From: Streptomyces sp. MZ04
GTDB taxonomy: Bacteria > Actinomycetota > Actinomycetes > Streptomycetales > Streptomycetaceae
Direction of reading: 5' to 3'
Assembly: GCF_004684775.1 (NCBI RefSeq)
Contig: NZ_SRIC01000019.1
Span: 1 to 58,249, forward strand
Length of the DNA stretch: 58,249 nucleotides
The position numbers and the translations under genes are program-made. The notes under the pieces are model-generated. The model had not been told where the DNA came from. It searched no databases and saw only the letters and a program-made list of their open reading frames with translations. Below are positions 39 through 13,348 of this stretch, piece after piece (positions within the stretch are counted from its first letter, which is position 1; every line of letters starts with the position of its first letter).

Positions 39-1400
39 TCAATCTCGCAGCGCCGCCACCGCCTCCGCCAACGCCCCCGGCACGTCCTCGACCAGGGTGT
101 GGGAACCGTCCCGTACGACATGACGGCCGCCCACCACCGTGTGGCGGACGTCCGCGGCGGACGCCGCGAAGACCGCCGTCTCCGCCGCCAGGCGCGGCAG
201 TGGGCCCGCCGTGCGGACCGAGTCCAGGGCCACGGTGGTGAGATCGGCCACCGCACCCGGCACGATGACCCCCGCGTCCGCCCAGCCCAGCGCCGCATGA
301 CCGTCCGCCGTCGCCGCGCGAAGCAGCGCCGCCGCCGTCCAGTGGCCCCGCGTGTGCGAGCGCAGGCGCTCGTTCAGTTCCATCGCCCTCGCCTCTTCGA
401 GGATGTCGATCACGGCGTGGCTGTCGCTGCCCAGGGAGAGGGGGCTGCCCGCCTGTTGGAGGCGGGGCGCCGGGCCGATGCCGTCCGCCAGGTCGCGCTC
501 CGTCGTCGGGCACATGCAGGTGCCCGTCGAGGAACCGCCGAGCAGTGCGATGTCCCCGTCCGTGAGGTGGGTGTTGTGGACGCCCGTCGTGCGGGGGCCC
601 AGCACCCCGTGGTCCGCAAGGAGCTGCGTCGGCGTGCGGCCGTGGACCGCCAGGCACGCTTCGTTCTCCGCCGTCTGCTCGGAGAGGTGGACGTGGAGGG
701 GGGCCCGGCGGGACGCGGACCATTCCGCCACCGTCCCCAACTGCCTTGCCGGGACCGCCCGTACGGAGTGGATCGCCGCGCCGATGCGCGCGTGGTCGCG
801 GTCCTTGAGCGCCGACGCCCGTTCCGCCCACGCCTCCGTCGTGCCGTCGGAGAAGCGGAGTTGGTGGCGGTTGGGGGGCTCGCCCCGTGACTCGGTGAGG
901 AGGCCCGACGCCACGTACGCCGTGTCGAGGAGCGTGATGCGGACACCCGCGTCCGCCGCCGCCTGGATCAGCGCCTCGCCCATCGCGTTGGGGTCGGAGT
1001 AGGCCGCGCCGCCCGGTCCGTGGTGGAGGTAGTGGAACTCGCCCACCGTCGTGATCCCGGCCAGCGCCATCTCCGCGTACACCGCCCGCGCGAGCGCGTG
1101 GTACGTCTCGGGCGTCAGGCGGTCCGCCACCGAGTACATGACCTCGCGCCACGTCCAGAACGTGCCGGAGCCGACCTGGACCGTGCCGCGCAGCGCGCGG
1201 TGGAAGGCGTGCGAGTGGGCGTTCGCGAGGCCCGGGAGCGTCAGGCCGCGCAGGACCGTCGCGCCGGGCGGGGGCGCCTCGACGTCCTTGCGGACCGCCG
1301 TGATCCGGTCGCCCGTCACCTCCACCGCCACGCCCGGCTCGACGAACGCGTCGAGCCAGGCATGCTCAAGCCAGTACGTCTCCGTCTGCTCCGTCGTCAC
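39..1400 (-). CDS. hutF: Formimidoylglutamate deiminase (amidohydrolase superfamily)
   Basis: A 453-aa cytosolic metal-dependent hydrolase expected to convert N-formimino-L-glutamate to N-formyl-L-glutamate and ammonia in histidine degradation. The metal-binding motif NAHSHAFHRALRG lies near the N-terminus, with HVHLSEQ and the GSDSHAVIDILEEAR segment further on, as in HutF. The start is GTG at 1400: the upstream gene's TGA overlaps it as GTGA, so the two are translationally coupled. It is the last gene of the minus-strand urocanase operon. Length and motifs are normal. Substrate assignment rests on family and on the neighbouring urocanase. Confidence 0.88.
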   Translation of the reverse strand: MTTEQTETYWLEHAWLDAFVEPGVAVEVTGDRITAVRKDVEAPPPGATVLRGLTLPGLANAHSHAFHRALRGTVQVGSGTFWTWREVMYSVADRLTPETYHALARAVYAEMALAGITTVGEFHYLHHGPGGAAYSDPNAMGEALIQAAADAGVRITLLDTAYVASGLLTESRGEPPNRHQLRFSDGTTEAWAERASALKDRDHARIGAAIHSVRAVPARQLGTVAEWSASRRAPLHVHLSEQTAENEACLAVHGRTPTQLLADHGVLGPRTTGVHNTHLTDGDIALLGGSSTGTCMCPTTERDLADGIGPAPRLQQAGSPLSLGSDSHAVIDILEEARAMELNERLRSHTRGHWTAAALLRAATADGHAALGWADAGVIVPGAVADLTTVALDSVRTAGPLPRLAAETAVFAASAADVRHTVVGGRHVVRDGSHTLVEDVPGALAEAVAALRD

Positions 1401-2620
1401 CTGCAAGCCAGCCCTTCCAGTACGTCGGCCAGTGCGGTCACCCCGGCCACGCAGTCGTCCTCGGCGGCGTACTCGGCCGGGGAGTGCGAGACGCCCGTGG
1501 GGTTCCGTACGAACAGCATGGCGGTCGGGATCGAGCCGGACAAAATACCCGCGTCGTGTCCCGCGCCCGTGCCGAGGACGGGGAGCGGCCGCTCCGAGCG
1601 AGCGCCCAGGATCGTGCCCAGTTCGTCGCGCAGGGCGTCCTCGAACTCGACCACCGGCGTGAAGGACTCGCGTACGACGTCGAGGTCGATGCCGTGCCGG
1701 TCCGCGTACTCGCGAGCCGCCTTCTCGACGCCCGTCACGACCGTGTCGAGGGTCGACTGGTCGGCGGCCCGCGAGTCCAGCCAGCCCCTGACCAGCGACG
1801 GGATCGCGTTGACGCCGTTCGGCTCGACCGAGATCTTGCCGAAGGTCGCCACCGCGCCCGCCAGTTCGGCCTCCCTGCGGGCCGCGAGCACCGTCTCCGC
1901 GTACGTCAGCATCGGGTCGCGGCGGTCGACCAGGCGGGTCGTGCCCGCGTGGTTGGCCTCGCCCCGGAAGTCGAAGCGCCAGCGGCCGTGCGGCCAGATG
2001 GCGGACGCGATGCCCACGGGGTCGCCCGTGAGGTCCAGGGCGCGGCCCTGCTCGACGTGCAGCTCCACGAACGCACCGATGCGGGCAAGGCGTTCGGGGT
2101 CGGGGCCGATCGTCGACGGGTCGTACCCTGCCGCCTCCATCGCCTGCGGGAGGCTGACCCCGTCGCCGTCCCGGAGTCTGTGCGCGGCCTCTACGGTCAG
2201 CTGTCCCGCGGTGAGCCGTGAGCCCACGCAGGCAAGACCGAAGCGCGCGCCCTCCTCGTCGCCGAAGTTCACGATCGCCAGGGGCCGGGTGAACGACACC
2301 CGCCTGGCGCGGAGTTCGTCCAGGGCGGCGAAGGAGGAGACCACGCCGAGCGGGCCGTCGAAGGCGCCGCCGTCCGGGACGGAGTCCAGGTGCGAGCCGG
2401 TGACGACCGCGTCGCCCCGGGCGGGGTCGCCGAGCCAGGCCCACTGGTTGCCGTTGCGGTCGACCTCGTGGTCGAGGCCGCGCGCCTCCGCCTGCGCCTG
2501 GAACCACAGGCGGCACTCGGCGTCGGCGCCGGTCCATGCGTAGCGGCGGTAGCCGCCCGAGGCGTCGCTGCGGCCGATGGGCCGCAGCGAACGCCACATG
2601 GCGTGGAACGTGTCGCTCAC
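1397..2620 (-). CDS. M20-family amidohydrolase (allantoate / N-carbamoyl-amino-acid hydrolase type)
   Basis: A 407-aa dinuclear-metal amidohydrolase of the allantoate amidohydrolase / L-carbamoylase group. Visible metal-site motifs are [19 protein letters not shown] (about residues 74-92), the DEEGARFG segment and ELHVEQG; the [11 protein letters not shown] segment fits the dimerisation/substrate domain. It starts at GTG 2620 overlapping the hutU stop by 4 nt and overlaps hutF by 4 nt, so it sits inside a three-gene hut operon. No HutG-type formylglutamate hydrolase is visible here, so this enzyme may hydrolyse N-formyl- or N-carbamoyl-L-glutamate rather than allantoate. That function is inference. 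Confidence 0.8.
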
Positions 2621-4296
2621 GCGCTGCCTTCCTCGCGCATCGGAATCCGTACGCCCTTCTCGTCCGCCACCGACTCCGCGATGTCGTAGCCCGCGTCCAC
2701 GTGCCGGATGACGCCCATGCCGGGGTCGTTCGTGAGGACGCGGCGGATCTTCTCGCCCGCGAGCTTCGTGCCGTCGGCGACCGAGACCTGGCCCGCGTGG
2801 ATGGAGCGGCCCATACCGACGCCGCCGCCGTGGTGGATGGAGACCCAGGAGGCGCCCGATGCGACGTTGACCATGGCGTTCAGGAGCGGCCAGTCGGCGA
2901 TCGCGTCGGAGCCGTCGAGCATGGCTTCCGTCTCGCGGTACGGGGATGCCACCGAGCCGCAGTCCAGGTGGTCGCGGCCGATGGCGAGGGGGGCGGCGAG
3001 GGTGCCGTTGCCGACCATGTCGTTGAACATGTCGCCCGCCTTGTCGCGCTCGCCCTGGCCCAGCCAGCAGATGCGCGCCGGGAGGCCCTGGAAGTGGACG
3101 CGCTCGCCGGCCATCTTGATCCAGCGGTGCAGGGACGCGTTCTGAACGGACTCAGCCTCCGGGAAGAGGTCGAGGATCGCCTTGTCCGTCTTGTGGATGT
3201 CGGACGCCTCGCCGGACAGCGCCGCCCAGCGGAACGGGCCTCTGCCCTCGCAGAAGAGCGGGCGGATGTAGGCGGGGACGAAGCCGGGGAAGGCGAACGC
3301 GCGGTCGTAGCCCGCCAGTTGGGCCTCGCCGCGGATCGAGTTGCCGTAGTCGAAGACCTCGGCGCCCGCGTCCATGAAGCCGACCATCGCCTCGACGTGC
3401 TTGGCCATGGACTCACGGGCGCGGGTGGTGAAGCCCGCCGGGTCCTTCGTGGCGTACGTCGCCATGTCCTCGAAGGCCACACCCGTCGGCAGATACGCCA
3501 GCGGGTCGTGGGCCGACGTCTGGTCCGTCACGATGTCGATGGGCGCGCCCTCGGCGAGCATCTGCGGAAGCAGGTCCGCCGCGTTGCCGAGCAGGCCGAT
3601 GGAGAGGGGGCGGCGGGCGTCGCGGGCCTCGACGGCCAGCTGGAGCGCGTGCCGCGGGGAGTCCGCCTGCACGTCCAGGTACTTGTGCTCGATGCGGCGC
3701 TCGATGGCGCGCGGGTCGACGTCGATACAGATCGCGACGCCGTCGTTCATCGTCACGGCGAGCGGCTGGGCGCCGCCCATGCCGCCGAGTCCGGCGGTGA
3801 GGGTGATGGTCCCCGCCAGGGTGCCGTTGAACTTCTTGGCGGCGACAGCGGCGAACGTCTCGTACGTGCCCTGGAGGATGCCCTGCGTGCCGATGTAGAT
3901 CCAGGAGCCCGCGGTCATCTGGCCGTACATGGTCAGGCCGAGCTGCTCCAGGCGGCGGAACTCCTCCCAGTTCGCCCAGTCGCCGACCAGGTTGGAGTTG
4001 GCGATGAGGACGCGCGGCGCCCACTCGTGGGTCTGCATGACGCCGACCGGGCGGCCGGACTGGACGAGCATCGTCTCGTCCTGCTTGAGGGTCCGGAGCG
4101 TACGCACCATGGCGTCGAAGGAGCGCCAGTCGCGGGCGGCCTTGCCGGTGCCGCCGTAGACGACGAGCTTGTCGGGGTGCTCGGCGACCTCGGGGTCGAG
4201 GTTGTTCTGCAGCATGCGGAGGGCGGCTTCCTGCTGCCATCCCAGGGCGCTCAGTTCCGTACCGCGCGGTGCCCGTACGGGGCGGGGTCCTGACAT
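2617..4296 (-). CDS. hutU: Urocanate hydratase
   Basis: A 559-aa NAD-dependent hydratase converting urocanate to imidazolonepropionate. Family blocks are clear: the [14 protein letters not shown] start, [32 protein letters not shown] for NAD binding, and the C-terminal block [14 protein letters not shown]. The start ATG at 4296 has a strong AGGAGG 8 nt upstream. It is the first gene of a minus-strand operon, overlapping the M20 hydrolase by ATGA. A TTGACT-N17-CAGGAT promoter-like sequence and an inverted repeat lie upstream. Length is normal. It could act on thiourocanate if the upstream lyase is ergothionase-like, but nothing in the sequence settles that. Confidence 0.93.
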
Positions 4297-4304
4297 GGCG
4301 ATTG

Positions 4305-4310
4305 CCTCCT
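4305..4310 (-). promoter_or_regulatory. Strong RBS of hutU
   Basis: AGGAGG lies 8 nt before the ATG at 4296, which fixes the hutU start. Confidence 0.7.
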
Positions 4311-4349
4311 CGCGTGAAGTGCTTCCGGTGGTGTGCCGCTGTGACCTTG

Positions 4350-4376
4350 CTATTCACATCCTGCGACGCTGAATAG
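4350..4376. promoter_or_regulatory. CTATTCA inverted repeat over the hutU promoter
   Basis: CTATTCA (4350-4356) and TGAATAG (4370-4376) form perfect 7-bp arms 13 bp apart and overlap the spacer and -10 of the candidate hutU promoter. This is a repressor-type position. The neighbouring RpiR regulator is the obvious candidate protein, by inference. Confidence 0.45.
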
Positions 4377-4386
4377 AACTAGTCAA
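4358..4386 (-). promoter_or_regulatory. Candidate hutU promoter
   Basis: On the minus strand TTGACT (4386-4381), a 17-nt spacer and CAGGAT (4363-4358) resemble a housekeeping promoter. Transcription would begin near 4350, giving a leader of about 54 nt. The TTGAC-N4-TCTATTCAG string recurs near the lyase/Opu divergent promoter at 8448. Confidence 0.45.
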
Positions 4387-4435
4387 TACATGGGTACGGC
4401 AGCGTTCTCGCGTCGCGGGTGATTGGCTGGAACGT

Positions 4436-5878
4436 ATGAGCGATCACGGCGCGGAGGCCGCACGCCTGTCCGAGGCGGGGAGCGACCCGGAATCCACCGT
4501 CCTGCTGGGGGCCGGGCCCCACGGTTCAGGGCCCGGCGCACCCCCCGGAGCCGAGTCCGCCGCCCGCCGCGACCAGGCCGTACGCGCCGCCGTCGAGCAA
4601 GGGATCGTCGGGCCCGCGTCCCCCATCGCGGGGCTCCTCGACATCACCGGCATCCGCGCGTCCGCCGCCGCCCTGCACGCCGCCTTCGACGCGGTCACGC
4701 CGGACGGCACCCCCGTCCTGCACGCCTTCGCGGTGAAGGCATCGCCCCTGGTCCCGGTCCTGCGGCTGCTGCGCGACGCGGGCATCGGCGCCGAGGTGGC
4801 GAGCCCCGGCGAGCTGGCCATCGCGCGGGCCGCCGGCGTCGCGCCCGCGCACACGGTCCTCGACTCGCCCGCCAAGACCCCGGCCGAGCTGCGCGAGGCC
4901 CTGGCGCTCGGCATCGCCGTGAACGCGGACAATCCGCAGGAGCTCGCCCGCATCGACGCGATGACCCAGTCGGCGCCCACCCGCTCCCCCGTCGGCCTGC
5001 GGGTGAACCCGCAGATCGGCGGCGGCTCCATCGGCGCCCTCTCGACGGCGACGGCGACCTCGAAGTTCGGGGTCGCGCTGCGCGACGAGGGCGCCCGCGA
5101 GTGGATCGTCCAGGCGTACCTCGACCGCCCCTGGCTGACCCGCCTGCACGCCCACTCCGGCTCGCAGGGCATGCCCCTGGAGCTGATGGTGCGGGGCGTG
5201 GCGGCGACGTACGAACTGGCCGAGGAGATCAACGAACGGGCCGGGCGGCGGCAGGTCGACACGATCGACATCGGCGGCGGACTGCCCGTCAACTTCGGTT
5301 CGGACGAGGAGAGTCCGACCCACGCGCAGTACGCGCGCCGCCTCAAGTCCCGTGTCCCGGGGCTGCTCGACGGGCGGTACGGCCTGGTCACCGAGTTCGG
5401 CCGCTCGCTGCTCGCCAAGCACGGCACGATCCTCGCCCGCGTCGAGTACGCCAAGTCGGCGGGCACCCGGCCCGTCGCGGTGACGCACGCGGGCGTCCAG
5501 GTCGCGGCGCGCACGGTGTACGCGCCCGCGTCCTGGCCGCTGCGGATCGCCGCGTACGACGCGAAGGGCCGCCCCAAGAGCGGCCCGCCGGTCGGCCAGG
5601 ACATCGCGGGCCCGGCCTGCTTCGCGGGCGACCTGCTGGCCGAGAACCGCCCCCTCCCCCTTCTCGAACAGGGCGACTACGCGGCGGCGCTCGACACCGG
5701 CGCGTACTACTTCGCGCACCACTACTCGTACAACAGCCTTGCCAGGCCCGGCATTTACGGCTTCGCGACACACGCCGACGAGGTGCGCTTCGCCGCCGTG
5801 CGGGAGCCGCAGACGCTGGACGAGATCGTGGCGGAGGCGGGCGGCGGCATCGCACGGGAGGCGCTGCGCCGTCTCTGA
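4436..5878 (+). CDS. Fold-type III PLP-dependent decarboxylase-like protein (diaminopimelate decarboxylase family)
   Basis: A 480-aa protein with the alanine-racemase/DapDC fold. The probable PLP lysine is in LHAFAVKASPL (about residues 99-109). Other family blocks are AEVASPGELAIARAAGV, HAHSGSQGM, the phosphate-binding IGGGLPVNFGSDEES, and VTEFGRSLLAKHGT. The usual C-terminal Cys-Glu-Ser-Asp substrate motif is replaced by GPACFAGDLLAE, so true diaminopimelate decarboxylation is doubtful and another diamino or D-amino substrate is possible. The N-terminal 45 residues are low-complexity. It is divergent from hutU and converges on the RpiR gene. Its link to the hut genes is only positional. Confidence 0.7.
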   Translation: MSDHGAEAARLSEAGSDPESTVLLGAGPHGSGPGAPPGAESAARRDQAVRAAVEQGIVGPASPIAGLLDITGIRASAAALHAAFDAVTPDGTPVLHAFAVKASPLVPVLRLLRDAGIGAEVASPGELAIARAAGVAPAHTVLDSPAKTPAELREALALGIAVNADNPQELARIDAMTQSAPTRSPVGLRVNPQIGGGSIGALSTATATSKFGVALRDEGAREWIVQAYLDRPWLTRLHAHSGSQGMPLELMVRGVAATYELAEEINERAGRRQVDTIDIGGGLPVNFGSDEESPTHAQYARRLKSRVPGLLDGRYGLVTEFGRSLLAKHGTILARVEYAKSAGTRPVAVTHAGVQVAARTVYAPASWPLRIAAYDAKGRPKSGPPVGQDIAGPACFAGDLLAENRPLPLLEQGDYAAALDTGAYYFAHHYSYNSLARPGIYGFATHADEVRFAAVREPQTLDEIVAEAGGGIAREALRRL

Positions 5879-5921
5879 ACCCCACGGCCCGCCGGCGGAC
5901 CGCCCCGCAGAGGTCTACATC

Positions 5922-5957
5922 CGGGCGGGCGCCCTCACTGAATCAGGCGGCCGCCCG
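5922..5957. terminator. Bidirectional hairpin between convergent genes
   Basis: Arms cgggcgggcgcc (5922-5933) and ggcggccgcccg (5946-5957) pair with one mismatch around a 12-nt loop. The element abuts the stop codon of the RpiR gene and lies 43 bp past the decarboxylase stop, so it can serve both. Confidence 0.5.
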
Positions 5958-6791
5958 CTACTCCACGAACAGCCCGCGCGCCGCCGCCCCCGTGTCGAAC
6001 TCCTCCAGGCGGGCCTGGGCGTCGGGGAGGCCGTCGCACATGGCCTCCAGGAGGACGCGGCCCAGGAGCATCGGGGCGCAGGCCGTGTCGAAGGCGAGGC
6101 CTGTGCCCACCGCCGCCGGGAGGAGGAGGTGGGAATGGGCCGCCACGGGGGCGAACGCCGAGTCGGCCACCGTCACCACCGTCAGGCCCGCCGACTGGGC
6201 GTAGGCCAGCGCGTCGAGCACCTCGCGCGGATGCCGCGGCAGGGCGAAGCAGAGCAGGGTCGAGGCCCCGGCACGTACCGCCGCGTCGATCCGGTCGGCC
6301 AGCATCGTGCCGCCCTCGTCCAGGAGGCGGACGTCCGGATGGACCTTCGACGCGAAGTACGCGAAGCCGTACGCCTGGGAGGCGGCGGCCCGCAGGCCCA
6401 GGACGGGGAGCGGGCGGGACGCGGCCAGGAGGCGGCCCGCGCGCTCCACCGGTGCCGGGTCCGCCAGGACCTCCGCCAGGTGCCGCAGGTTCGCGATCTC
6501 CGCCTCCACCGCCTGCTGGTACTCGTTGAGGGAGGACTCGCCCGCCTCCTCCGCGGGTGACAGTTCCCGCAGGTGCTTGCGCAGCGCGGGGTATCCGTCG
6601 AAGCCGAGCGCCACCGCGAAACGCGTCACCGAGGGCTGGCTCACCCCGGCAAGCTCCGCCAGTTCGACGCTGGAGAGGAAGGGGACGTCCGCCGCCCGGC
6701 GCACCATGCAGTGCGCGATGCGCCGCTGCGTGGGCGTCAGCCGGTGTCCCTCGAAGAGCACTTGCAGCCGTGCCGCAGGACTGTCACTCAT
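5958..6791 (-). CDS. RpiR-family (HTH + SIS) transcriptional regulator
   Basis: A 277-aa regulator with an N-terminal HTH_6 domain (TPTQRRIAHCMVRRAADV, then LAELAGVSQPSVTRFAVALG as recognition helix) and a C-terminal SIS domain (about residues 115-260) that normally senses a phosphosugar or other small metabolite. The ATG at 6791 overlaps the lyase stop by 4 nt (ATGA), so regulator and lyase are one transcriptional unit. It is the best candidate to bind the CTATTCA / TTGAC-GTCAA repeats in front of hutU and between the lyase and the Opu transporter. An upstream in-frame GTG would add 22 unconserved-looking residues and was not used. Confidence 0.85.
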   Translation of the reverse strand: MSDSPAARLQVLFEGHRLTPTQRRIAHCMVRRAADVPFLSSVELAELAGVSQPSVTRFAVALGFDGYPALRKHLRELSPAEEAGESSLNEYQQAVEAEIANLRHLAEVLADPAPVERAGRLLAASRPLPVLGLRAAASQAYGFAYFASKVHPDVRLLDEGGTMLADRIDAAVRAGASTLLCFALPRHPREVLDALAYAQSAGLTVVTVADSAFAPVAAHSHLLLPAAVGTGLAFDTACAPMLLGRVLLEAMCDGLPDAQARLEEFDTGAAARGLFVE

Positions 6792-8362
6792 ACCGTTCCC
6801 CTCACAACACCCTGGCCCTCGACGGCCGTTCCGCTTCCGGCCCCCAGGCCCGACCACAACTCGGTGAACCGGTCAAGGAGTCCGGCCGCCGCTGTGACAT
6901 CATCCGTCAGCGGGCGGTCGGCCAGCTCCGCGTCGAGGACCGAGTCCGCCAGTTCGAAGGCCCGCCCGACGGGCAGTTCGACGTCCAGGCGCATGTCCCG
7001 CTGGCGCAACGCCCTGATGGCCGCCACCAGTTCACAGCCCACCACCAGCCGGTACGCCTCGCACGCGCGCAGTGTCTGGCGGGCCGCCAGCGAGGCGAAG
7101 CTGGCCTGCTCCTCGACGCCTCGGGACAGGACGGCGTGGCCGAGCGACGCGGGCGCCGAGAAAGCGCGGAGGTCACCCAGGGCCGCCCCGGCCGCGTACT
7201 CGAGGATCATCACGCCCGACGACGCCGGTTCGCCGTCCGCGAGGAAGGGGCGCAGGCGGGTGAAGGCCGGTTCGTTCAGGGTCGACAGGCGGGACGTCGA
7301 GAGGCGGGCCGCCTGGGTCGTCGCCAGTCTGAAGTGGTCCAGGGACAGGGCGAGTTGGGCCAGGTAGAAGCCGCCGTGGTGGTACGCCGCCATGTCGTCC
7401 GGTGAGATCAGCGGGTTCTCCGCGGCCGCGTTGATCTCGACCGTGAGGACGTTCTCCAGCGCGTCCGCCGCGTCGTGCGCGGGGCCGTGGATCTGCGGGA
7501 CGCAGCGGAAGCCGTAGGGGTCCTGGATCCGGCCGAGCGGTGGGGTGGGGCGGTCGGGGGCGCCGAGGATCAGGCGCATGCGTTCCGCCACCGCGTACGA
7601 ACCCGCGTGGCGGCGTGCCTCGTGCACGGGCAGCGCGTACGCCTCGTACGAACCGTCGACCGCCATCAGGGAGAGCGCGGCCACCACCTGCGTCGCCGCG
7701 ATCAGGCCGCGCAGTTCGTGCAGGGCGAGCGCGGACTGGCCGAGGGTGAGGGCGTTGCTGCTGATCAGGGCCAGGGCGTCGTTGTTGTCGAGGGGCTGCG
7801 GGGCGGGGGCCGCGCCCGTTCCCTGCCAGGGGTGCTCGCCCGCAAGGGCGAGGCCCATCTGGGCGAGGGCCGCGATGTCGCCGGTGCCGACCGAGCCGAA
7901 CTCGTTCACCTTCGGGTACGCGCCCGTCTCCAGGGCCTCGCAGAGCGCCGTGACGACGGTCGGGCGCAGCCCCGCGCCGCCGGCGAGCAGCTGGTTGGCG
8001 CGGACCGCGAGCATCGCGCGGACCTCACGCGCAGGGAGCTCCTCGCCGATCGCGCCGGCGTGGCTACGCAGCAGGCGCAGGCCGTGGTCGGAGGCCGCCT
8101 CGGTCGGCACGGACTCATTCCGGTTCGCGCCCACGCCGGTGGAGCGGCCGTAGACGCGGCCCCAGGACGCGATCTCCCGCGCGGCGTTCCACGAGCTCTC
8201 CACGCGCTTCATCCCGTCCGTTCCCGGAACGGGCTTTGCGGTGGATTCGGCCAGGCGTACGACATCTGCGACCATCAGTCCGCGGCCGTCCAGGACGACG
8301 ACCGAGCCACTGTCGTCGGCCGCCCTGCCGGTCGCCGTGTCCGCGATACGAGACGACATCAC
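6788..8362 (-). CDS. Histidine/aromatic ammonia-lyase-fold protein with non-canonical MIO site
   Basis: A 524-aa member of the HAL/PAL/TAL fold. Family blocks are present: STGVGANRN near the N-terminus, QDPYGFRCVPQIHGP, INAAAENPL, and the EEQASFAS segment. The cofactor loop reads GSVGTGDIAALAQ. The Ala-Ser-Gly that cyclises to the MIO electrophile is Gly159-Thr160-Gly161 (codons at 7880-7888). The LALLNGT segment is LALISSN, losing the usual Asn position. So ordinary histidine deamination is unlikely, and a MIO-independent elimination is possible. GTG 8362 is preferred because GGAGG lies 8 nt upstream; ATG 8359 is the alternative. It is divergent from an OpuC transporter. Confidence 0.8.
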   Translation of the reverse strand: MMSSRIADTATGRAADDSGSVVVLDGRGLMVADVVRLAESTAKPVPGTDGMKRVESSWNAAREIASWGRVYGRSTGVGANRNESVPTEAASDHGLRLLRSHAGAIGEELPAREVRAMLAVRANQLLAGGAGLRPTVVTALCEALETGAYPKVNEFGSVGTGDIAALAQMGLALAGEHPWQGTGAAPAPQPLDNNDALALISSNALTLGQSALALHELRGLIAATQVVAALSLMAVDGSYEAYALPVHEARRHAGSYAVAERMRLILGAPDRPTPPLGRIQDPYGFRCVPQIHGPAHDAADALENVLTVEINAAAENPLISPDDMAAYHHGGFYLAQLALSLDHFRLATTQAARLSTSRLSTLNEPAFTRLRPFLADGEPASSGVMILEYAAGAALGDLRAFSAPASLGHAVLSRGVEEQASFASLAARQTLRACEAYRLVVGCELVAAIRALRQRDMRLDVELPVGRAFELADSVLDAELADRPLTDDVTAAAGLLDRFTELWSGLGAGSGTAVEGQGVVRGTV

Positions 8363-8447
8363 TCGCAATTCCTCCTCAACCCGGACGCTCCGTCTTGCCC
8401 TGCGATCACTCGTAACCAGCGATTTACGCCGGGGCGTGGACAAGCTA

Positions 8448-8467
8448 TTGACAATCTATTCAGTCAA
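8448..8467. promoter_or_regulatory. TTGAC-N10-GTCAA operator-like palindrome in the lyase/Opu divergent region
   Basis: TTGAC (8448-8452) and GTCAA (8463-8467) flank CTATTCA (8456-8462). The + strand string TTGAC-AA-TCTATTCAG matches the minus strand of the hutU promoter (TTGAC-N4-TCTATTCAG). It lies 45 bp before the Opu ATPase and about 85 bp before the lyase, so one regulator could control both. TTGACA at 8448-8453 is also a perfect -35 toward the Opu genes, but no convincing -10 was found. Confidence 0.45.
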
Positions 8468-8511
8468 CGAGAACTCTGCATGACGATATACAGCCGGGCA
8501 AGGGACTCCTC

Positions 8512-9558
8512 ATGATCCAATTCGATACGGTCCACAAGCGCTTCCCGAACGGCACAACCGCGGTCCACAACCTCACACTTGAGATGCCGGAAGGCGGCGT
8601 GACCGTCCTCGTCGGATCTTCCGGTTGCGGCAAGACGACGACGCTCCGGATGATCAACCGGATGGTCGACCCGACCTCCGGGACCATCCGGGTCGGCGGC
8701 CGCGACGTCCTGGAGCAGGACGCGGCCGAGCTGCGCCGCTCCATCGGGTACGTGATCCAGCAGTCCGGGCTGTTCCCGCACCGCACGGTCCTGGACAACA
8801 TCGCCACCGTGCCGCTGCTGCTCGGCTGGGGCCGCAAGAAGGCCAGGGCGCGGGCGGCCGAGCTCCTGGAGACGGTCGGCCTCACCGCCGACGCGGGCAA
8901 GCGGTACCCGCACCAGCTCTCCGGCGGCCAGCAGCAGCGCGTCGGCGTGGCCCGCGCGCTCGCCGCGGACGCGCCGGTGCTGCTCATGGACGAGCCCTTC
9001 GGCGCGGTCGACCCGGTGGTCCGCACCCAGCTCCAGGACGAACTCCTGCGCCTCCAGCGGGAGTTGAACAAGACCATCGTCTTCGTCACGCACGACATCG
9101 ACGAGGCCGTACGGCTCGGCGACCGCATAGCCGTCTTCCGCACCGGCGGCCATCTCGTCCAGTGCGCGTCCCCCGCCGAACTCCTGGCCCGCCCGGCGGA
9201 CGACTTCGTCGCGGACTTCCTGGGCGCCGAGCGCGGCCTCAAGCTGCTCTCCCTCAGCACCCTCGCCGACGTCCCGCAGGGGCCCGCTCCGGAGGGCGGC
9301 GCCTGGACACTGCGGCTCGACTCCGCGGGGGCCCCGGTGGCGTGGCGGCACAAGGACTCCGAGGCTGCGGACGTCCCCGTACGCCCCCTGCGCGACACCG
9401 ACTCCCTGCTCTCCGCGCTCAACGAATCCATAGCCGCCCCGAGCGGCCTCGTCGCCCGCGTCGACGCCGACGGCGTGCTGACCGGCGTCACCTCCCGCGA
9501 CGACATCCACGCCCACGCGGGCCGGGCGCACACCGACGCAAGCACGGTGGACGTATGA
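8512..9558 (+). CDS. Quaternary-amine ABC importer, ATP-binding subunit (OpuCA/ProV type)
   Basis: A 348-aa cytosolic ATPase. The Walker A is GSSGCGKTT, the signature is SGGQQQRVGVARA, and the Walker B is VLLMDEPFGAVDP, all typical of the glycine betaine/carnitine/choline class. The C-terminal 100 residues look like a CBS-type regulatory module (LVARVDADGVLTGVTSRDDI). Its TGA overlaps the next permease's ATG. With the two permeases and the binding lipoprotein it forms a complete importer. Quaternary ammonium specificity is a family expectation; the actual substrate is unknown. Confidence 0.88.
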   Translation: MIQFDTVHKRFPNGTTAVHNLTLEMPEGGVTVLVGSSGCGKTTTLRMINRMVDPTSGTIRVGGRDVLEQDAAELRRSIGYVIQQSGLFPHRTVLDNIATVPLLLGWGRKKARARAAELLETVGLTADAGKRYPHQLSGGQQQRVGVARALAADAPVLLMDEPFGAVDPVVRTQLQDELLRLQRELNKTIVFVTHDIDEAVRLGDRIAVFRTGGHLVQCASPAELLARPADDFVADFLGAERGLKLLSLSTLADVPQGPAPEGGAWTLRLDSAGAPVAWRHKDSEAADVPVRPLRDTDSLLSALNESIAAPSGLVARVDADGVLTGVTSRDDIHAHAGRAHTDASTVDV

Positions 9559-10202
9559 CCGTCGACTGGTCGTGGATATCCGACCACACCGGCGACCTCA
9601 CCACCCTCACGCTCTCGCACCTCCAGGCCGCCCTCACCGCCGTACTGCTCGGGCTGCTGATCTCGCTCCCGCTGGCCGTCCTCGCGCATCGCGTACGCCC
9701 CCTGCGCGGGCTGCTCCTCGGCCTCTCGAACGTCCTGTTCACCATCCCGTCCATCGCGGTCTTCGTGCTGCTCCTGCCGGTCAGCGGGCTCACCCGCACG
9801 ACCACCGTCATCGGCCTGACGATCTACACGCTCGTCGTGCTCCTGCGGAACACCGTCGAGGGCCTGGACTCCGTACCGGCCAAGACGAAGGAAGCCGCGA
9901 AGGCCATGGGCACCCGCCCCCTGCGCACCCTGCTCACCGTCGAACTCCCCCTCGCCCTGCCCGTGATCATGGCGGGCGTGCGGATCGCCACCGTCATGGC
10001 GATCTCCCTGGTCTCCGTGGCGACGTACATCGGCGACGGCGGTCTCGGACAGCTCTTCACGGACGGGTTCCAGCGCAACTTCCCGACCCCCGTCATCGTC
10101 GGCGTCGTCCTGACCCTGCTCCTCGCGCTCGTCGCGGACGCGCTCCTCGTCACCCTCCAGTACGTCCTGACTCCCTGGACCCGCCGCAAGAGGAGCGCGT
10201 GA
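9555..10202 (+). CDS. OpuC-type ABC permease 1
   Basis: A 215-aa inner-membrane permease with about five transmembrane segments and the cytoplasmic coupling motif around EAAKAMGTRPLRTLLTVELP, as in OpuCB/ProW. The N-terminus is short, as in split OpuC permeases. It starts by a 4-nt overlap with the ATPase and ends 1 nt before the second permease. Confidence 0.87.
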   Translation: MTVDWSWISDHTGDLTTLTLSHLQAALTAVLLGLLISLPLAVLAHRVRPLRGLLLGLSNVLFTIPSIAVFVLLLPVSGLTRTTTVIGLTIYTLVVLLRNTVEGLDSVPAKTKEAAKAMGTRPLRTLLTVELPLALPVIMAGVRIATVMAISLVSVATYIGDGGLGQLFTDGFQRNFPTPVIVGVVLTLLLALVADALLVTLQYVLTPWTRRKRSA

Positions 10203-10203
10203 C

Positions 10204-10875
10204 ATGTACGAACTCTTCAAGGACCTCGGCGCCTGGCTGGTCAGCGGCGACCAGTGGGCGGGGCCCGACGGCATCGGGCACCGCCTCGCCGAGCACCTCC
10301 AGTACTCGCTGCTCGCCACGCTCATCGCGGCCGCCATCGCGCTGCCGCTCGGCCTGCTCATCGGGCACACCGGACGCGGCGCCTTCCTCGCCATCAACCT
10401 CGCGAGCTTCGGCCGGGCGCTGCCCACCGTCGGCCTCGTCGTGCTCGTCTTCCTCGCGAGCGGGCTCTCCATGTGGCCCGTCTACATCGCGCTCGTCGCG
10501 CTCGCCGTGCCCTCCATCGTCACCAACACCTACGCCGGGATGACCGCCGTCGACCGTGAGGTGAAGGACGCGGCGAAGGGCCAGGGCATGCGCTGGCACC
10601 AGGTCCTCTTCCAGATCGAACTGCCCCTCGCGCTGCCGCTGATCATGACCGGGCTCCGGCTCGCGCTGATCCAGGTCGTGGCGACGGCCACCATCGCCGC
10701 GTACGTCTCCTTCGGCGGGCTCGGCCGGTACGTCTTCGACGGGCTCGCCCAGCGCGACCTGGTCCAGGTGCTCGGCGGTGCCGTGCTCGTGGCGGTCGTC
10801 GCCGTCGTACTCGATCTCGCGCTCTCCGGACTGCAGCGCGCCCTCTTCCGCCACCGCCCCGCCAAGTCGGCCTAG
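10204..10875 (+). CDS. OpuC-type ABC permease 2
   Basis: A 223-aa permease paralogous to the preceding gene, with EVKDAAKGQGMRWHQVLFQ as the EAA coupling loop and about five membrane helices. Together the two form the heterodimeric channel of the importer. It is separated from the binding-protein gene by only 11 nt. Confidence 0.87.
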   Translation: MYELFKDLGAWLVSGDQWAGPDGIGHRLAEHLQYSLLATLIAAAIALPLGLLIGHTGRGAFLAINLASFGRALPTVGLVVLVFLASGLSMWPVYIALVALAVPSIVTNTYAGMTAVDREVKDAAKGQGMRWHQVLFQIELPLALPLIMTGLRLALIQVVATATIAAYVSFGGLGRYVFDGLAQRDLVQVLGGAVLVAVVAVVLDLALSGLQRALFRHRPAKSA

Positions 10876-10886
10876 GAGCAAGCCAG

Positions 10887-11831
10887 ATGGCCCCCATGAA
10901 CCGCAGGACCCTCCTCGGCGGACTCTTCGCCGCCGCGTCCGTCCCCGCGCTCGCCGCCTGCAGCGGCGGCATCACCTCCCTCGACGGGGGAGGGTCCGGC
11001 GGTGGCGGCGGTGGCTCCAGCAAGAACGGCGTCACCATCGGCACCGCCAACTTCACCGAGAACCAGGTCCTCGGCTACCTCTACGCCGCCGCACTCGAAG
11101 CGGCCGGAGTGAAGACGAACGTCCGCCCCAACCTCGGCACCCGCGAGATCCTCATCCCCGCCCTCAAGGGCGGCGACATCGACCTGCTGCCCGAGTACCA
11201 GGGCGCGCTCCTGCACTACCTCGACCCCAAGGCGAAGGCCACCGAGGAGGGCGAGATGCAGAACGCGCTCGCCATGGCGCTGCCGCGCGGACTGCAGATC
11301 CTCCCCTACGGGATGGCCGAGGACTCCGACGCCTTCGCCGTCACGCGGGAGACCGCCGACGAGTACGGCCTCACGTCCCTCGCCGACCTGGCGAAGCACA
11401 ACGGCAAGCTCGTCATCGGCGCAGCCCCCGAGGTGAAGAAGCGCACGGTCGGCGCGGTCGGCCTCAAGGACGTCTACGGCGTGGAGTTCAAGGAGTTCAA
11501 GTCCCTTGATTCCTCGGGGCCGTTGGTGAAGGGCGCCCTGAAGAAGGGCGACGTGGACGTGGCGAACCTCTTCACCACCGACACCGACATCGCGGCCGAG
11601 AAGTGGGTGGTCCTCACCGACCCCAAGAACCTCATCCCCGGCCAGCACGTGGTCCCGCTCATCGCCGACCGCAAGGCCGACTCGACGGTGCGCAAGGCAC
11701 TCGCCCGGCTGGGCGGCGTACTGACGACCAAGCAACTCACCGAGCTCAACCGCCTGGTGGACAAGGACAAGAAGGATCCGGAGGACGTCGCGAACGACTG
11801 GGCGGCGCGCCACGGACTGACGAAGAAGTAA
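10887..11831 (+). CDS. OpuC-type substrate-binding lipoprotein
   Basis: A 314-aa extracytoplasmic binding protein. A twin-arginine-like signal (NRRTLLGGLF) leads to lipobox LAAC and a Gly/Ser-rich linker. The mature domain starts TIGTANFTENQVLGYLYA and contains LGTREILIPALKGGDIDLL and PEYQGALLHY, diagnostic of OpuCC/OpuBC-like quaternary amine binders. An ATG at 10896 is an alternative start. It completes the importer. Ergothioneine importers of the EgtU type belong to the same fold family, which matters for the neighbouring lyase. Confidence 0.87.
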   Translation: MAPMNRRTLLGGLFAAASVPALAACSGGITSLDGGGSGGGGGGSSKNGVTIGTANFTENQVLGYLYAAALEAAGVKTNVRPNLGTREILIPALKGGDIDLLPEYQGALLHYLDPKAKATEEGEMQNALAMALPRGLQILPYGMAEDSDAFAVTRETADEYGLTSLADLAKHNGKLVIGAAPEVKKRTVGAVGLKDVYGVEFKEFKSLDSSGPLVKGALKKGDVDVANLFTTDTDIAAEKWVVLTDPKNLIPGQHVVPLIADRKADSTVRKALARLGGVLTTKQLTELNRLVDKDKKDPEDVANDWAARHGLTKK

Positions 11832-11881
11832 CGCACGTACGGAACAGCGGACTTACTAAAAGAAGTAGCGGACTTACTGAA
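11813..11881 (+). repeat. Degenerate tandem repeats of the binding-protein gene tail
   Basis: The gene's last codons (cggactgacgaagaagtaa) are followed by two further degenerate versions. The core AGCGGACTTACT occurs exactly at 11846-11857 and 11867-11878, a 21-bp period. The spacer before the NCS1 permease therefore looks like local duplication of a 3' end. Confidence 0.5.
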
Positions 11882-11902
11882 GAAGCAGGGGAGTCGAGCG
11901 GC

Positions 11903-13348
11903 ATGGCAGCTGAGGACCTGGTGGAGCGGCGCTCCATCGACGTCGTCCCCGACGACGAACGGCACGGCACCGCGTTCAGCCAGTTCACCCTCTGGCTGGG
12001 CGCCAATCTGCAGATCACCGCGGTCGTGACCGGCGCACTCGCCGTCGTCTTCGGCGGCGACGTGGTGTGGTCGATCGTCGGCCTGCTGCTCGGCAATCTG
12101 CTCGGCGGCGCGGTGATGGCCCTGCACTCCGCGCAGGGCCCGAAACTGGGCCTGCCCCAGATGATCCAGTCCCGCGCCCAGTTCGGTGTGAAGGGCGCGG
12201 TCGTCCCGCTGCTCCTGGTCATCGTGATGTACGTCGGGTTCTTCGCGAGCGGCAGCGTCCTGGCCGGACAGGCCACGGCCGAGCTGACGCACACCGACCA
12301 CACCACCGGCATCATCATCTTCGCGGTGGTCACGGCGGTGACGGCAGCGGTCGGCTACCGCGTCATCCACACGCTCGGCCGGGTCGCGAGCGTGATCTGC
12401 GCGCTGGCCTTCGGCTACCTGGGCATCCGGCTCCTGGACCGCGTGGACCTCTCCACGCTCCTGAACGACGCGCACTTCGACCTGCCGATGTTCCTGCTCG
12501 CCGTCTCCCTCTCGGCGTCCTGGCAGCTCGCCTTCGGGCCGTACGTCGCGGACTACTCGCGCTATCTGCCGCGCACGACATCGGGCAAGGCGACCTTCTG
12601 GTGGACCCTGTCCGGATCCGCGCTCGGCTCGCAGTGGTCGATGACGTTCGGTGTCCTCGTGGCGGCGACCGCGGGCGACGCGTTCCTCGCCAACCAGGTC
12701 GGATACGTCGTCGGCCTGGGCGGCACCGGCCTGATCGCGTCGTTCCTCTACTTCGTGATCGCGCTCGGCAAGCTGACCATCAACGTGCTCAACACCTACG
12801 GCGGCTTCATGTCGATGGTGACCAGCGTCAGCGGCTTCCGCGGCCAGAAGGTCCTCTCGCAGCGGGGCAGGGCCGCGTACATCGCGCTGATCATGGTCGC
12901 GGGCACGGCGGTCGCGCTGCTCGGCAAGGACAGCTTCCTGACCTCCTTCAAGGACTTCCTGCTCTTCCTGCTGACCTTCTTCACGCCGTGGTCGGCGATC
13001 AACCTGGTCGACTTTTACCTGATCTCCAAGGAGCGCTACGACATACCGGCGCTCTCCGACCCGGCGGGACGGTACGGCGCGTGGCGCTGGGACGCGCTCG
13101 TCGTGTACGGGGTCGGCCTGCTCGCCCAGCTCCCGTTCCTGGTCACGCACTTCTACACCGGACCGCTTGTCGAGCCGCTCGGCGGCGCGGACGTGTCGTG
13201 GATCGTGGGTCTGGTCGTACCGGCGGCCCTGTACTGGCTGCTCGCACGGCGTGGCGCAGCGGATCTGGACCCCGATGAGAATGGGGGGATAGCCCCACTG
13301 TCAGAGGCGTCCGGGCTGCGTACGGTAAATGACTATGGAAGCCAGTGA
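11903..13348 (+). CDS. NCS1-family nucleobase/hydantoin-type permease
   Basis: A 481-aa polytopic membrane transporter of the purine-cytosine/allantoin/hydantoin (NCS1) family with roughly 12 hydrophobic segments. Family regions include LWLGANLQITAVVTGALAV near the N-terminus, the SRAQFGVKGAVVP segment and GPYVADYSRYLP. ATG 11903 is chosen over long upstream read-through because the conserved protein starts there and a purine-rich sequence precedes it. It lies 71 nt after the ABC importer, same strand, probably the same operon. Substrate unknown; NCS1 members include hydantoin carriers, which would suit the hut-like context. Confidence 0.85.
   Translation: MAAEDLVERRSIDVVPDDERHGTAFSQFTLWLGANLQITAVVTGALAVVFGGDVVWSIVGLLLGNLLGGAVMALHSAQGPKLGLPQMIQSRAQFGVKGAVVPLLLVIVMYVGFFASGSVLAGQATAELTHTDHTTGIIIFAVVTAVTAAVGYRVIHTLGRVASVICALAFGYLGIRLLDRVDLSTLLNDAHFDLPMFLLAVSLSASWQLAFGPYVADYSRYLPRTTSGKATFWWTLSGSALGSQWSMTFGVLVAATAGDAFLANQVGYVVGLGGTGLIASFLYFVIALGKLTINVLNTYGGFMSMVTSVSGFRGQKVLSQRGRAAYIALIMVAGTAVALLGKDSFLTSFKDFLLFLLTFFTPWSAINLVDFYLISKERYDIPALSDPAGRYGAWRWDALVVYGVGLLAQLPFLVTHFYTGPLVEPLGGADVSWIVGLVVPAALYWLLARRGAADLDPDENGGIAPLSEASGLRTVNDYGSQ

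Follow-up and report, generated by a model that had tools for sequence, protein, structure and literature searches.

Which substrate is handled by a lyase of the histidine ammonia-lyase (HAL) fold that lacks the residues forming the 4-methylideneimidazole-5-one (MIO) cofactor and lies between histidine utilization (hut) genes and an OpuC-type importer? This arrangement is found in contig NZ_SRIC01000019.1 of Streptomyces sp. MZ04, the 58,249 nucleotides of which are called the window here (the genome assembly comprises 9.11 Mb in 630 contigs). The original prediction for this stretch proposed import and breakdown of a histidine-derived betaine, hercynine or ergothioneine. Our analysis supports this pathway and sharpens it to hercynine: the cluster is likely to serve hercynine use through import, trimethylamine elimination by the MIO-less lyase and the ordinary hut route.

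The lyase lacks the MIO tripeptide and groups apart from HutH and ergothionase

The lyase is encoded as follows:

6788-8359, minus strand: MIO-less HAL-fold lyase, predicted hercynine trimethylamine-lyase (PF00221, 365 bits; loop, active-site comparison, tree and model described below)

The window lyase is 97% identical to one Streptomyces protein. Its best NCBIfam matches are HutH models, both under cut-off (276 versus 524 bits and 275 versus 539 bits), and the Treponema denticola ergothionase is within its top three PDB sequence matches. The cofactor loop, described as abnormal in the original prediction, does lack the MIO tripeptide: in the alignment it reads GSVG-TGDIAAL, compared to GSLGCSGDLAPL in Streptomyces HutH and SSIG-EGDITTL in ergothionase. 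The tripeptide (Ala/Cys-Ser-Gly) is present in 7/7 HutH rows and missing in 32/32 rows of the lyase family, having been lost by a one-residue deletion that this family has in common with the ergothionases.

At the active site, the position of HutH Asn195 is occupied by Ser in all 32 lyase-family rows and in all 8 ergothionase rows, among which the T. denticola protein alone is a characterised enzyme and the rest are homologues of 58 to 90% identity. The equivalents of HutH Tyr53, His83, Arg283 and Glu414 are kept in every lyase-family row (32/32); in Pseudomonas putida HutH, His83 and Glu414 are imidazole contacts and Arg283 is the carboxylate contact. Two positions distinguish the family. Glu is found in 32/32 rows at a site with Gln in both HutH (7/7) and ergothionases (8/8), and Tyr is found in 31/32 rows where ergothionases carry Lys (8/8).

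In the tree of the lyase with HutH and ergothionases, a comparison that the original prediction had called for, the lyase does not cluster with normal HutH. Its family forms a clade with support of 100/100, as do the ergothionases (100/100) and two further MIO-less groups, each separate (100/100); HutH is supported at 92/93, and the Burkholderia ergothionase is outside the sequence set of the tree. The branch that divides HutH plus two long-branch rows from all others, including the MIO-less groups, is supported at only 83/95, so that the tree does not establish a single loss of MIO. The MIO-less loop and the tree together rule out the window lyase as a canonical HutH, and the family is a new clade, apart from HutH and ergothionase.

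The AlphaFold model of the lyase (predicted local distance difference test score, pLDDT, 88.6; predicted template modelling score, pTM, 0.89) was computed from an alignment that included four ergothionase-type rows and one HutH. Its best Foldseek match is the T. denticola ergothionase (PDB 6s7j; E 4.1e-31, template modelling (TM) scores 0.85/0.89), closely followed by HutH (E 1.2e-27, TM scores 0.86/0.89). The window lyase thus resembles ergothionase 6s7j in the HAL fold, the one-residue MIO deletion, Ser at Asn195 and the His83/Glu414 equivalents, and differs from it in being about 25% identical, in its separate clade and in two residues near the active site, where it has Glu instead of Gln and Tyr instead of Lys. 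It resembles HutH in fold, in most substrate-contact positions and in the neighbouring hutU, but is without the MIO tripeptide, has Ser for Asn195, is 29-33% identical and scores under the HutH model cut-offs.

The lyase is linked to an OpuC-type importer in Streptomyces

Divergent from the lyase, a complete OpuC-type importer had been proposed. Indeed, all of its components (a ProV-like ATPase, two BPD permeases and an OpuAC binding protein) are encoded in one operon, and an NCS1-family permease gene follows:

8512-9558, plus strand: importer ATPase, ProV/OpuCA type (TIGR01186, 303 bits, under the cut-off of 326.6; PF00005)
9555-10202, plus strand: importer permease 1 (PF00528, 85.7 bits; kept beside the lyase)
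10204-10875, plus strand: importer permease 2 (PF00528, 77.9 bits)
10887-11831, plus strand: substrate-binding lipoprotein-like protein, OpuAC family (PF04069, 184 bits; EgtUC structures among its best PDB sequence matches)
11828-13348, plus strand: NCS1-family permease (PF02133, 183.5 bits)

The lyase was found at at least 68% identity in 40/101 genomes of the genus. Among the matches listed, the binding protein (at least 69% identity) occurs in 32 of these 40 genomes (one copy being truncated by the end of its contig) but is missing from all 61 others (Fisher p ~4e-19, relatedness ignored). Neighbour genes were scored by tblastn; gene calls based on codon composition missed some genes. At 36 Streptomyces lyase loci, the importer lies beside the lyase in 29, hutU in 25, rpiR in 31 and ncs1 in 11. 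Five of the 29 loci with importer are relocated, keeping lyase and importer together with neither hutU nor rpiR in 18 kb.

In a second group of Streptomyces lyases (46-57% identity), the binding protein is encoded directly upstream, for example in genomes G013, G014, G017, G020, G024, G045, G077 and G095. Among the matches listed, an OpuC-type binding-protein gene is found within 20 kb of 40/51 lyase rows (at least 46% identity), compared to 0/84 HutH-like rows, which were assigned by about 30% identity with their loops inspected in part only; the comparison omitted three ASD-type rows and at least three more (G064, G086:C11, G014:C297). The nearest binding-protein gene to any HutH-like row, among the matches listed, is 47 kb away. 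We also observed that the second group (L069:3347-6562; L095-L102) carries a divergent four-gene set that separates the second permease gene from the binding-protein gene and the largest member of which has HAMP and histidine-kinase ATPase domains in L069.

The hut genes favour hercynine as the probable substrate

On the other side of the lyase, hutU, an M20-family enzyme and hutF were predicted to form one operon. We found all three over the cut-offs of their models, and each adjacent pair overlaps by 4 bp:

39-1400, minus strand: hutF, formimidoylglutamate deiminase, start codon inferred (NF006681, 686 bits, cut-off 362; TIGR02022, 535.5 bits, cut-off 413)
1397-2620, minus strand: M20-family amidohydrolase (NF006770 'allantoate amidohydrolase', 662 bits, cut-off 372)
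2617-4296, minus strand: hutU, canonical urocanate hydratase (TIGR01228, 884 bits, cut-off 375)

HutU and HutF are thus a canonical hut pair. The M20 enzyme, which scores 270 against the ErtE carbamoylglutamate model (under the cut-off of 520), may deformylate N-formylglutamate. The contig ends 38 bases past hutF, and in the related loci L125 and L126 hutF is followed by hutI. The trio matches the Streptomyces-type hut operon, which occurs also without the lyase; as a difference from that operon, the hut promoter of the window has a motif in common with the importer/lyase promoter (see below).

The urocanase bears on the choice between the two betaines. Unlike ergothionase, an ergothioneine trimethylamine-lyase, the lyase is accompanied here by a canonical urocanase and not by a thiourocanate hydratase. 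HutU is the sole match in the genome to the thiourocanate hydratase model NF058530, and its 632 bits, under the cut-off of 930, rule it out as such an enzyme. No thiourocanate hydratase above cut-off was found in any of four related genomes searched, all of which have canonical HutU only (4/4; one 60% complete; the lyases of G300 and G488 are of a different MIO-less type). Since the only urocanase is canonical, the product of the lyase should be plain urocanate, pointing to hercynine as the substrate. For the same reason, the hercynine branch of the original prediction is the one supported and its thio (ergothioneine) branch becomes less likely. The genome also encodes EgtD (377.5 bits, cut-off 290.9); hercynine can therefore also be made inside the cell.

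Lyase, importer and hut genes recur with egt genes in distant actinobacteria

In a scan of named genomes we kept the best 80 of 429 relatives (37 Streptomyces loci and 43 others). Importer genes are near the lyase in 25/37 Streptomyces and 13/43 other loci, and hut genes in 25/37 and 8/43, respectively. Four of the 80 loci have, instead of the importer, an organic-cation-transporter-like protein of the major facilitator superfamily (TIGR00898, 168.5 bits, under the cut-off of 550.75).

The lyase, the OpuC-type importer and hut genes recur together in the distant actinobacteria L112, L151, L158 and L185. Locus L112, from another class of the phylum, has the order rpiR-x-hutH-opuA-opuB-opuB-opuC-lyase-M20-hutU-hutF-hutI on one strand, x being an unassigned gene; gaps are below 65 bp, apart from those flanking hutH and opuA, which measure about 50 to 220 bp. 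Its HutU is canonical (934.7 bits, compared to 680.6 with the thiourocanate model, cut-off 930). Two loci, L158 (Thermomonospora echinospora) and L151 (Actinoallomurus), combine hutF-M20-hutU-hutH-opuCBBA with the lyase and with egtA-egtB-egtC-egtD within 10 kb, and in L158 EgtA, EgtB, EgtC and EgtD all score above their cut-offs. The hutH inside the lyase cluster is of the MIO type in L112, L151 and L158. A tblastn search placed egt genes near the lyase in 6/80 named loci (L122, L151, L153, L158, L161 and L171), L122 having egtB and egtD only; egtD encodes the hercynine-forming methyltransferase.

A promoter motif is shared by hutU and the lyase/importer genes

Alignment of the lyase/opuA intergenic DNA with the DNA upstream of hutU revealed a common TTGAC...TATTCA block. 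The two sites and the candidate regulator gene are:

4370-4386, minus strand: promoter motif TTGAC-N6-TATTCA, with a downstream TGAATA half, upstream of hutU
8448-8462, plus strand: promoter motif TTGAC-N4-TATTCA, between lyase and importer
5958-6791, minus strand: RpiR/MurR-type regulator gene (PF01418, 43.5 bits; its ATG overlaps the lyase stop codon, ATGA)

These are exactly the two sites in the window, compared to 0 in 100 shuffles; the pattern was defined after viewing both promoters, so that its weight rests on conservation and on the genome count and not on this window count. The whole genome (9.1 Mb) has five exact copies, the three further ones at C87:48555, C240:1060 and C409:16473, and the reversed control has 0. 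The motif is exact in 51/55 lyase/opuA intergenic stretches (55/55 with at most one mismatch) and in 52/54 stretches upstream of hutU, both sets including the window itself and some near-duplicates. At the five relocated loci it is exact in four and has one mismatch in the fifth. TTGAC may belong to a -35 element. At hutU, the pair TATTCA...TGAATA, present in 51/54 upstream stretches, resembles an operator. A TTGAC...GTCAA palindrome was seen in the window only.

The RpiR regulator had been described as coupled to the lyase. The ATGA overlap bears this out, but the gene is not specific to the lyase: it is genus-wide (99/101 genomes at E <= 1e-40), which rules out a lyase-specific regulator. 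The RpiR protein may regulate both hut and the lyase/importer genes, and one might guess that it binds the shared motif.

Another gene lies divergent from hutU and is kept in 25/36 congener loci:

4436-5878, plus strand: pyridoxal phosphate (PLP)-decarboxylase-like gene (scores under the lysA cut-off)

A proposed route for hercynine

We propose that the OpuC-type importer likely takes up hercynine (trimethyl-histidine), that elimination of trimethylamine by the MIO-less lyase would then yield urocanate, and that HutU, HutF and the M20 enzyme, with HutI from past the contig edge, would take urocanate to glutamate. The chemistry would be that of ergothionase, and the downstream route the ordinary hut one. 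The lyase is tied to a histidine betaine by its recurrent place next to hut, importer and egt genes and by the motif that the two promoters have in common. Since trimethylammonium is a better leaving group than ammonia, the reaction would not require the electrophilic MIO. The conserved Glu, which is Gln in HutH and ergothionase, could bind the protonated imidazole or serve as a base, and the kept equivalents of His83, Glu414 and Arg283 would provide the imidazole and carboxylate contacts, as in HutH.

Several observations weigh against this proposal, which draws on sequence and gene context. The modelled structure confirms the HAL fold of the lyase and not its function: the fold match does not separate ergothionase from HutH. 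Hercynine as the ligand of the window importer is predicted from its gene context; neither the lysine nor the aromatic cage by which known proteins of this kind bind betaines is kept in the window binding protein. Relative to EgtUC, Lys242 is replaced by Ala, Gly244 by Phe, Asn339 by Asp, Tyr341 by Asp and Tyr443 by Gln, so that the aromatic pentagon of EgtU with Asn339, Tyr341 and Tyr443 is not preserved; in L112 and L119, by contrast, the binding protein has retained Lys, Asn, Tyr and Tyr at the Lys242, Asn339, Tyr341 and Tyr443 sites. Asp at the Tyr341 site is found also in OpuC-type proteins without a lyase nearby and is therefore no mark of lyase clusters. Among the matches listed, 8/40 Streptomyces lyase genomes are without the binding protein, and 25/43 non-Streptomyces loci (16 of them Lentzea) have no importer, hut or organic-cation-transporter-like gene in the stretches examined, some of which are truncated. 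The NCS1 permease, put forward as a cluster member, is present in the window but near the lyase in only 11/36 congener loci, which rules it out as a fixed part of the cluster. The post hoc definition of the motif pattern belongs here as well.

Alternative substrates and functions

It is possible, but unlikely, that the lyase is a trimethylamine-lyase for ergothioneine (or its oxidised or S-methylated form), with the importer taking up ergothioneine and the thio-urocanate passing to HutU or other enzymes. The MIO-less loop and Ser195 common to lyase and ergothionases, the best Foldseek match to 6s7j, the high rank of EgtUC in the sequence search with the binding protein, and the full ergothioneine-making egtABCD sets near some lyases are all consistent with it. 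Conversely, the lyase family is a separate clade with Tyr (31/32) where ergothionases have Lys (8/8), and no thiourocanate hydratase match above cut-off was found in the window genome and the four others. Compared with the ergothioneine importer EgtU of Streptococcus and Listeria (PMC9732360), the window binding protein is alike in its OpuAC-family domain (about 100 bits to EgtUC) and in the equivalents of Glu375 and Arg379, and the window importer differs in having a separate binding lipoprotein-like protein and two permeases. The report on EgtU gives Gly244 as invariant, a residue that the window binding protein is without, which argues against ergothioneine import, and describes the binding of hercynine by EgtUC as very weak.

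Another imported betaine or amine as the substrate, with the Streptomyces hut neighbourhood being merely a preferred insertion place, seems rather improbable. The relocated clusters (5/29 with importer), the lone lyases in Lentzea and the atypical binding-protein pocket would fit it. Against it, hut genes are again found with the lyase, independently, in the earliest-branching relatives (L112, L122, L128) and in Thermomonosporaceae, egtD is added in those loci, and the hutU motif is kept at the relocated loci, exact or with at most one mismatch.

A separate canonical hutH, which the original prediction suggested looking for, was not found in the window assembly, but its expected position coincides with a contig break: hutH-flanking DNA runs as far as base 44 in contig C113 and picks up again at base 1181 in C171, of which bases 1-1180 hold other genes. 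This is likely an assembly gap, and because the flanks end at the contig break we reject a true absence of hutH. That the lyase is an unusual histidine ammonia-lyase, a lyase of less-methylated histidine or a spare MIO-free HutH is very unlikely: its place near hutU, its best NCBIfam matches to HutH models, though under cut-off (276 versus 524 bits), and the assembly without canonical hutH speak for it, but matches to a HutH-like protein are found in other lyase-bearing genomes too, a contig break falls at the expected hutH site, L112, L151 and L158 have a MIO-type hutH in the lyase cluster itself, and ammonia is a poor leaving group without MIO.

Other MIO-less lyases

The window genome encodes a second MIO-less HAL-family protein (L107:2154-3818, G000:C606) with the loop GSLGTGDLQPM and an alanine-rich N-terminus, possibly a signal peptide. 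Another type, with the loop GSIGASDL and Lys at the ergothionase site, occurs in L092:6366-13639, L093 and L094 (genomes G049, G091 and G087), where its gene forms a set of three with those for an ornithine cyclodeaminase/mu-crystallin-type protein and an unassigned 300-aa protein, divergent from another opuABBC importer. On a Polaromonas plasmid, a lyase also adjoins an ornithine cyclodeaminase-type gene. A further type (GSVGQADL) lies beside hutU and opuABBC in L119:7980-9563 (G300) and beside rpiR-M20-hutU-hutF in L121:645-2189 (G488). The search of plasmids for T. denticola-type lyases returned distant lyases with other neighbours. In Sinorhizobium meliloti pSymA (L203), an ergothionase-like lyase annotated as hutH, about 37% identical to a clostridial homologue, has an ABC importer and an annotated dimethylsulfoniopropionate lyase gene in its neighbourhood.

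A possible catabolic fate for hercynine

Hercynine is known mainly as an intermediate from histidine to ergothioneine. At the level of titles and abstract openings, with subscription journals mostly outside the scope, we found no description of bacterial hercynine breakdown. We think it reasonably probable that many actinobacteria carry a dedicated hercynine route, comprising a new lyase activity, an importer of new specificity and control in common with histidine breakdown. If so, proteins currently classed as HutH or 'aromatic amino acid ammonia-lyase' would be hercynine trimethylamine-lyases, which would explain a large set of MIO-less proteins bearing histidine or aromatic ammonia-lyase names and add a second case of a MIO-less HAL fold eliminating trimethylamine. 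Hercynine would gain a catabolic fate in its return to urocanate, and the route would indicate a source of trimethylamine in soil. In clusters that include egtABCD, the cell would both make and dismantle its own hercynine, closing a cycle.

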